Source of the DNA: Cadophora sp. MPI-SDFR-AT-0126
Lineage: Eukaryota; Ascomycota; Leotiomycetes; Helotiales; Ploettnerulaceae
Assembly: GCA_020747065.1 (NCBI GenBank)
Contig: JAGMVK010000021.1
Coordinates: 744,001-808,000 of the forward strand
Direction of reading: 5' to 3'
Length of the DNA: 64,000 nt
In this document: piece by piece, positions 51,912 through 53,940 of the stretch
How the letters are laid out: each line of letters begins with the position of its first letter
Position numbering within the stretch: position 1 is the first letter of the stretch
The notes under the pieces: model-generated
The model's input: the letters and a program-made list of their open reading frames with translations, nothing else
What the model was told of the DNA's origin: nothing
Databases searched by the model: none
Translations under genes and position numbers: made by a program

Positions 51912-53940
51912 ATGCCTTCTAAGGCCAGATTTCCCTGGCAACGGCCGCAGGATGAGGTACTATCTACAATACCCGGCGCCAATAGAAGCAGCTTCTTTGC
52001 CAGACTGTCTCGGTTCACCATCTTCAACAGAAATGACCATGGAGATGCCGACTCTCTGGATACGACAATGCCTGACGATTCCATCTCGTTTCGACTCACA
52101 TCGGCCAGTCGTACTCCCTCAACTTCAACTAACAATGACGATAATCCTAATGCTGCCCCCTTTCTGAATACGATAATACCTGGCGGTTCCATCTCGGTGG
52201 CTCACTTAGAAAACTCGGCCGGATTTGTCCTCTCAACCCCAACCGACGACGACGATGGTTCCGATGCAGAATCTGTGCATACGATAAGGCCCCGGAACGT
52301 CGCCACCTCAACTGTGAGCCAATCGACCGGGACTTACTCCAGCAGCACCGTGACAGGGACTTCAATCACTTCAGCGAGTGGAAGCACCGAGGTGTCCATC
52401 CAAGCCTCTGCTTATTCATTGGTTGTTCCAGGTATCTATCAAGTACTTGTTACATGTGGTTTCATACTGATCCACTCATCAGCGCGTACCCCGAGTCTCG
52501 AGTTCACATACAGAGCGCGTACTGGTGGGATGGAAGAAGAAGTCGCGGCGCTAGTCATAGACAATGGGTGTGTGGTACACCTTTGCTGAGGGGTTCTACA
52601 TTGGAGCTCTGCTGATATTGGCTCAGGAGTGGCATGGTAAAAGCCGGATTTGCAGGCGATGACGCCCCTAGAGCTTTATTCCGTAAGTCCGATGAAATTT
52701 ACGGTTCAATGGAAGTGCTAATATTTCCCCAGCATCAATTGTTGGAAGACCTAGACACCATGGGTGAGTGGATTTCTCAACAAAATGACACATACGCAGT
52801 TAATAATACTGGTCACTAGGATCATAATTGGCATGGGTCAGAAAGACTCATATGTAGGCGACGAGGCTCAATCGAAACGCGGCATTCTCACCCTGAGATA
52901 TCCCATTGAACACGGCGTGGTCACAAATTGGGATGACATGGAGAAGATATGGCATCATACCTTCTACAATGAACTTCGAGTTGCTCCAGAAGAGCACCCT
53001 GTGCTAATGACAGATGCACCAATCAACCCCAAATCAAACCGGCAAGTCTCCAATCATTTCAAGTAGTAAGTAAGAAGCTGACAACGCTCCACAGGGAGAA
53101 AATGACCCAAGTCGTGTTTGAGACCTTCAACAGCCCAGCTTTCTATGTTTCCATTCAAGCTGTGCTGTCATTATACGCCTCAGGCCGAACTACTGGAGTA
53201 GTCCTCGATTCTGGCGACGGAGTCACTCATATCGTTCCGATTTATGAAGGATTCGCACTCCCATTCGCTATTAGCAGAGTAGATATGGCTGGCAGAGATT
53301 TAACAGACTACCTGATGAAAATTCTCGCAGAGAGAGGCTACACCTTCAGTACAACGGCAGAGAGAGAGATTATTCGAGACATAAAAGAAAAGCTTTGTTA
53401 CGTGGCTTTGGACTTTGAGCAGGAAATCCAAACGGCTTCTCAGAGCAGCGCCCTCGAGAAGTCATATGAACTACCAGATGGTCAGGTCATAACTGTTGGG
53501 AACGAAAGATTCAGAGCCCCGGAGGCCCTGTTCCAGCCCAGCGTACTAGGTCTGGAGTCGGGCGGACTCCATGTTACAACGTTCAACACAATCATAAAGT
53601 GTGATGTTGACGTTCGCAAGGACCTCTATGGTAACATAGTCATGGTACGTGGTCTCTCGTTTTCAGGTACCGGTGACTGGTCTCATTATACTAACCTAGA
53701 TACCACTAGGCCGGTGGGAGTACAATGTATCCGGGTATCGCGGATCGCATGCAAAAAGAGATAACTGCACTTGCACCTTCTTCCATGAAGGTCAAGATCA
53801 TAGCACCACCAGAGAGAAAATACAGCGTTTGGATCGGTGGCTCCATCCTAGCGTCATTGTCAACATTTCAACAAATGTGGATATCGAAACAAGAATATGA
53901 CGAGAGTGGACCATCGATCGTGCATCGAAAGTGTTTTTAG
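51912..53940 (+). CDS. Actin paralogue with a 189-residue in-frame N-terminal extension
   Basis: Exons 51,912-52,431; 52,483-52,567; 52,627-52,682; 52,733-52,763; 52,820-53,041; 53,095-53,644; 53,710-53,940 give 564 residues. From the Met encoded at 52,530 ([13 protein letters not shown]) the protein is a full 375-residue actin with nucleotide-binding DNGSG, D154/G156, Q137, H161 and H73 kept, and the usual C-terminus HRKCF. Differences from conventional fungal actin include V17 for Cys, I44 for the D-loop Met, F173 for His and A300 for Ser. Upstream, the same frame is open from the ATG at 51,912 through a Ser/Thr/Asp-rich region with imperfect repeats of about 37 residues; a 51-nt intron with branch site TACTGAT is likely near its end. 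One intron has a GC donor. Conserved-type introns argue against a retrocopy. Whether translation starts at 51,912 or 52,530 is open; both fit. Confidence 0.85.

Follow-up and report, generated by a model that had tools for sequence, protein, structure and literature searches.

The DNA analysed here, referred to below as the window, is a stretch of 64,000 nt of the Cadophora sp. MPI-SDFR-AT-0126 genome (54 Mb, 38 contigs; C14:744001-808000). The window contains a second actin gene, and the canonical actin gene is located on a separate contig (C4, L024). The presence of the second gene had been proposed in the earlier note and was confirmed by the Pfam search, in which PF00022 covered the encoded protein over its full length (E 3.9e-142, profile 2-410 of 410). 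The closest solved structure was also that of an actin (8a5d_V, E 8.3e-245). A search of the same genome with actin gave 20 matches, of which the C4 and C14 loci showed at least 89% identity; the others, with identity of 57% or less, are as would be expected of actin-related proteins. The frame of the second actin continues upstream of its conventional start, and the following features were distinguished:

51,852-51,854, + strand: in-frame TGA, the 5' limit of the open frame
51,912-52,431, + strand: proposed first coding exon, an open frame with RNY and codon signal, encoding extension residues 1-173 and base 1 of codon 174
52,046-52,088, + strand: first copy of a 43-nt repeat, in frame, 81% identical to the second copy at a spacing of 108 nt
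52,068-52,070, + strand: second ATG of the frame, preceded by A at -3, an alternative start that would give a 137-residue extension
52,154-52,196, + strand: second copy of the 43-nt repeat, in frame
52,432-52,482, + strand: candidate 51-nt intron (GTATCT..CTGAT..TCAG), the frame being open spliced or unspliced
52,483-52,567, + strand: junction exon, running from the extension through actin codons 1-12 to the second base of codon 13 (actin portion 52,530-52,567)
52,530-52,532, + strand: conventional actin Met1
52,627-52,682, + strand: actin exon holding the Met16 codon (52,634), at which the public protein model starts
52,733-52,763, + strand: actin exon
52,820-53,041, + strand: actin exon, its 3' end at a GC-AG intron missing from the canonical gene
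53,095-53,644, + strand: actin exon
53,710-53,940, + strand: final actin exon, stop included

The canonical gene has five introns, located after base 1 of codon 3 and at NG/SG, FP, HG, and M/SGG. The second gene keeps the last four of these positions and has an extra GC-AG intron at NR/EK, so that its actin part also contains five; the first canonical intron, which follows ATGGAGG, is missing exactly (ATGGAAGAAGAAGTC). Since four canonical introns are kept, the second gene is, judging by its structure, the product of DNA duplication rather than a retrocopy. The protein P0126 ('actin family [Cadophora sp. MPI-SDFR-AT-0126]') shows 100% identity to the second actin across its 360 residues and is taken to be the public model of this gene. 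As it begins at Met16, it is devoid of actin residues 1-15, which presumably include the first phosphate loop, and describes neither the 51,912 nor the 52,530 start. This model is very probably 5'-incomplete.

Of 375 residues, 21 differ between the second and the canonical actin (94.4% identity), and nearly all of the substitutions are conservative. At the nucleotide level, the identity of codon positions 1, 2, and 3 is 89, 97, and 40%, respectively, and 39 of 158 fourfold-degenerate sites are identical versus 38.9 ± 4.7 expected from permutation, indicating synonymous saturation. Because so few protein differences have accumulated despite saturated fourfold sites, the comparison indicates that the second actin is an old gene under strong purifying selection; since the protein has hardly changed over a long period, the gene very probably has a working actin as its product. 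Among the nucleotide-site residues, which we take to be G13-S14-G15, K18, D154, G156-D157-G158, K213-E214, G302, T303, M305, and Y306, T303 alone differs from the canonical protein, as the conservative T303S. The acidic N-terminus MEEEV is also present and would become internal if the upstream extension were translated.

These data bear on the possibility that the locus is a pseudogene or an assembly artefact. The loss of intron 1 and the GC-AG intron are unusual, and AT-rich RIP-like blocks occur within the same window. Nevertheless, the actin body runs for 375 codons with no stop or frameshift at the above identity and synonymous saturation, the RIP signature is not present across the gene (TpA/ApT 0.70), and the gene is a single locus on a 1.08-Mb contig. 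This explanation is considered very improbable.

As for the surroundings of the gene, the AT-rich blocks occupy positions 1-24,000 and 30,001-34,000, show a GC content of 21-31% with RIP-like bias (TpA/ApT 1.55), and adjoin normal DNA. Three frames with HET (heterokaryon incompatibility) domains lie around the second actin (34,377-35,882; 45,761-47,956; 54,026-55,987, minus strand); the last of them is convergent and ends approximately 85 nt from the actin stop. In addition, the frame 38,597-39,529 (minus strand) matches tRNA-synt_2c in part (profile 455-550 of 552) and also contains tRNA_SAD, a domain pattern that, we assume, resembles stand-alone alanyl-tRNA editing proteins. Neither the Rfam search nor the tRNA search of the window gave a match.

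The earlier note had stated that the actin frame is open back to an ATG at 51,912. This was borne out: the frame is open from 51,855 to 52,589, and ATG 51,912 is in frame with the actin Met 52,530. The region 51,912-52,529 comprises 618 nt, or 206 codons, and 189 codons are left with the phase kept after the removal of the proposed junction intron. This 51-nt GT-AG intron, which had been called plausible, does keep the frame, though its 5' splice site is weak: GTATCT has C at +5, and G occupies this position in 10/10 other introns of both actin genes. In contrast to the second gene, the canonical one has an in-frame stop four codons 5' of its ATG.

Several estimates were obtained for the coding potential of the extension. 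Openness over 225 codons in one given frame was found in 7 of 20,000 first-order Markov sequences built from the region. The RNY fraction in the three frames of the extension was 0.40, 0.14, and 0.26, with 0.40 in canonical actin, and the value of 0.40 was reached by none of 3000 simulated stop-free sequences of either Markov order. When thirds of the extension were analysed separately, this signal was evident in the middle third (residues 64-126, p 0.0005) and the last third (127-189, p 0.003), and not in the first (1-63, p 0.13). The codon-usage score of the extension was 0.038 per codon, compared with 0.065 ± 0.050 in coding windows (n=80; 29% below the extension), -0.070 ± 0.036 in intergenic windows (n=192; 0.5% reach its score), and -0.060 ± 0.052 in off-frame windows of real genes (n=400; 3.5% reach it). 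Immediately 5' of 51,912 the score is lower (-0.063, 19 codons only). Against simulated stop-free sequences the codon score is weaker than the RNY signal (p 0.014 and 0.067 for the two Markov orders), none of the thirds is significant (p 0.18, 0.06, and 0.11), and one antisense frame across the extension, with 3 stops, outscores it (0.060). On the whole, the extension looks protein-coding by these measures.

The coding-like RNY periodicity and an open frame with a chance of about 2-4 in 10,000 count against one alternative, namely, that an ordinary second actin is made from Met 52,530 and the upstream frame is a 5' UTR or promoter open by chance. The alternative draws on the N-terminus itself: Met1 and the acidic EEEV were retained despite synonymous saturation, which favours the conventional start because an internal Met would not need keeping. 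ATG 52,530 has G at -3, and ATG 51,912 has C at this position, a weak context. Furthermore, P0211 (Hyaloscypha, 381 aa), the probable relative considered below, has the annotated start MEEEVAAS, and this speaks against an ancient extension. Two annotated N-terminal extensions of fungal actins, in P0185 (135 residues) and P0218 (118 residues), appear by eye to be translated 5' UTR, and they are a reason for caution before an open leader is taken to be translated.

The pyrimidine content gave a similar, slight indication. In the last 420 nt 5' of the canonical ATG, it is 0.62-0.77 in every 60-nt bin, whereas the extension does not have such richness, which counts against its being an open 5' UTR or promoter; in the second gene the two bins preceding 51,912 have values of 0.50-0.55, and mild richness (0.63 and 0.58) is seen at 52,392-52,511. 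If anything, this leans slightly towards a start near 52,530 and gives no support for one above 51,912. The out-of-frame ATGs point the other way. Nine of them lie within 51,912-52,530, among them that at 52,264 and the ninth (52,454), which is inside the candidate intron; therefore, initiation at 52,530 needs a transcript start within approximately 52,270-52,529, or leaky scanning or reinitiation. A transcript beginning just 5' of 51,912 is most simply read as the extended form, and one from further upstream would meet two short frames, at 51,854 and 51,880, before ATG 51,912. It may also be that the gene gives both forms, each from its own start site. The conventional start alone is a serious possibility that falls clearly short of an even chance.

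A further alternative is that the upstream stretch belongs to a separate small gene or relic that abuts actin and is spliced otherwise, unfused. By our own reading, splicing from 52,432 to the ACAG at 52,513 would shift the frame to a TAG inside the actin exon and give 186 residues in total. The existence of such acceptors, the coding signal in a sequence with no homology to actin, and the fact that the stretch is not part of the public actin model agree with a separate gene; on the other hand, the upstream frame is free of stops up to 52,587 and enters actin in phase. A search for homologues of the extension found none at E ≤ 10 (2100 candidates from 5.8 billion proteins, with lengths of 310-987 residues eligible only). 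This counts against a translated tail and, within that length range, against a separate gene as well; an independent protein of 186 residues would have escaped such a search. In addition, the protein set was clustered at 90% identity, which may hide orthologues. An unfused gene is regarded as improbable.

Searching the genome itself with the extension gave, besides itself, only one weak match (C23, 27%, E 0.004), located in a 481-residue frame that looks, by eye, like a mannosidase. No Pfam match to the extension was found, and its DNA has no copies elsewhere in the genome; the DNA of the upstream region recurs only as an element of approximately 110 bp outside the extension. This dispersed element (51,101-51,210) has copies on C12 (89%) and C34 (75%).

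The extension was described earlier as Ser/Thr/Asp-rich, in agreement with its composition (Ser 16.9%, Thr 12.7%, Asp 7.4%). Three parts can be distinguished: residues 1-42 are basic (net +4) and include an 11-residue amphipathic stretch, the middle (43-130) is acidic (net -10), and the end (131-189) is Ser/Thr-rich (44% Ser+Thr). Modeling of residues 1-173 alone in the AlphaFold2 program shows no structure (mean pLDDT 31.8, 173/173 residues under 50), the input being a single sequence without alignment, for which poor models are common for folded proteins too. The prediction thus weakly indicates that the tail is disordered. As for the two copies of the 43-nt repeat, 7 of their 8 differences fall at codon positions 1-2 (counted by eye), so that no protein-level constraint is visible in the repeat.

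Relatives of the second actin were sought among public proteins. The first orthologue search (best 120 of 7981) was useless for ranking in that all 46 matches of 600 residues or less were partly duplicated actins. In the search with a 58-residue part (best 120 of 2599), P0126 was the sole 100% match among the matches listed and the only clear case among them nearer to the second actin than to the canonical one; P0167 showed 68.8 versus 68.4%. The motif SGGLH is common to the second actin, P0211, and P0167 (3 of 233 proteins, P0126 counted), and AGG[SN]TMYPG is common to the second actin, P0211, P0167, and P0224 (4 of 233, P0126 counted). P0167 (Trichoglossum, 304 aa) is partial and begins at residue 119; P0224 (280 aa) originates from a metagenome. 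One constructed tree grouped the second actin with P0211 (support 90/82) and another with P0211 and P0167 (89/85), while a third tree, based on fewer columns and with P0224 added (23 rows, 257 columns), contained no resolved link of the second actin to P0211 or P0167. This grouping of the aligned sequences is not stable across trees. At 21 diagnostic residues, P0211 has the second-actin state in 6, the canonical state in 11, and another state in 4. P0211 is regarded as a probable relative.

A horizontal origin of the second actin was also considered and is unsupported, the protein falling among Pezizomycotina actins (support 100/99; 80/76 with an open fork in a second tree). Its exact place within them is not resolved by the 23-row tree.

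P0211, P0167, and P0224 are divergent actins and have inserts in the loop at approximately residues 229-233, with 6 (P0211), 47 (P0167), and 64 (P0224) residues over the usual 11, whereas the second actin has no insert there; each of the other proteins in which the flanking motif was present, the only ones counted, has the usual 11. P0167 and P0224 have mutually homologous inserts (..SEVS.HASF.DL.TEAQPII.FE.PVDRPTP). The same loop has been used by a laboratory for internal actin tags.

Comparison of the whole extension with the P0167 insert gave a score of 59 (shuffles 33 ± 5, p 2e-4; 0 of 1559 genome pieces as high, the best being 43), and with the P0224 insert a score of 51 (p 0.015; best null piece 50). 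When the Ser/Thr-rich half was left out, the P0167 core scored 40 (p 0.003 vs the whole extension; reached by 1 of 1559 pieces), compared with 26 for the P0224 core (p 0.30; reached by 112 of 1559). The resemblance to the P0167 insert is located at the end of the extension (approximately 52,338-52,505, last 40 residues), and the alignment crosses the 52,432-52,482 junction. This likeness was noticed post hoc, is uneven, is not matched by the P0224 core, and serves as a lead only; judging by it, the tail end of the extension and the Trichoglossum loop insert may share an origin. A broader proposal would be that Leotiomycete-type fungi keep an old second actin with a disordered Ser/Thr-rich chain at either of two tag-tolerant sites (the N-terminus or the subdomain-4 loop 229-233), so that a minority actin with a natural tag would label certain networks. 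This is speculative and is considered unlikely.

Returning to the extended form, it is about an even bet that part of the protein is made with the extension, and this is likelier than any single rival. The explanation preferred here, with a probability just under even, is that the gene encodes an old working second actin in which a 5' exon adds a disordered tail of 189 residues (137 from the second ATG) to some of the product. With its actin body folded, such a protein would enter filaments alongside normal actin as a minority component, and the tail would protrude from subdomain 1 at the outer face of the filament. As an address or spacer, the tail would direct the subunit into particular actin networks or exclude it from them, and could locally hinder myosin or tropomyosin.

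To our knowledge, the usual view is that filamentous ascomycetes have a single conventional actin; moreover, phylogenetic and expression studies often rely on actin as a reference gene. For both reasons, an old second actin matters even if it has no tail.

According to the earlier note, N-terminal fusions of full-length actin are not a known fungal architecture. For fungi this agrees with our survey, in which no second or extended fungal actin was found in titles and the beginnings of abstracts of the open literature; outside fungi the statement does not hold, as extended actins are known there (filactin, POTE-actin, Arp53D). Thus, an extended actin is a known kind elsewhere, and a fungal one has no precedent in the literature surveyed at that depth. 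The extension of filactin presumably has filamin-like parts. In the accessible text, this Dictyostelium discoideum protein is described as 'a conventional actin with a long N-terminal extension' (PMC2441452). It resembles the second actin in the N-terminal position of the extension, and its PEST motif is Ser/Thr-rich (PMC2441452). However, the filactin extension is much longer, an actin motif being listed at residue 739, whereas the fungal one has 189 residues and no Pfam match. Primate POTE-actin (POTEE/POTEF) is, in the available part of its description, a natural N-terminal fusion to beta-actin (PMC8292509). There, actin was retrotransposed into an ankyrin-repeat gene, while the fungal gene keeps actin introns and its extension has no known domain.

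Experiments with tagged actin are also relevant. In human cells, according to the portion of the study consulted, N-terminally tagged actin was highly colocalised with actin, and T229/A230 in subdomain 4 was a permissive internal site (PMC10957077). In Aspergillus nidulans, N-terminal GFP-actin labelled patches and the Spitzenkörper, and cables were not labelled (PMC12422587, in part). The latter is no proof of sorting by the tag because the other F-actin probes of the study missed cables too. The accessible sections of PMC12570480, PMC7098657, and PMC12422587 do not name a second actin gene.

A further likeness is to Drosophila Arp53D, an actin paralogue with an N-terminal tail that is predicted to be unstructured and has no homologues, and the putative fungal tail would be similar in these respects; in the text available, the tail is necessary and sufficient for placement, also on canonical actin (PMC8291977). 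In contrast to the fungal protein, with its body 94.4% identical to canonical actin, Arp53D has a tail of 40 residues and a body under positive selection (PMC8291977). By analogy, the likeliest role of the fungal tail would be that of a disordered address tail, as in Arp53D, although such a role is itself doubtful. If the tail is translated, the second actin would amount to a tagged actin occurring in nature and provide a test of whether cells can sort subunits between networks by an N-terminal tail.
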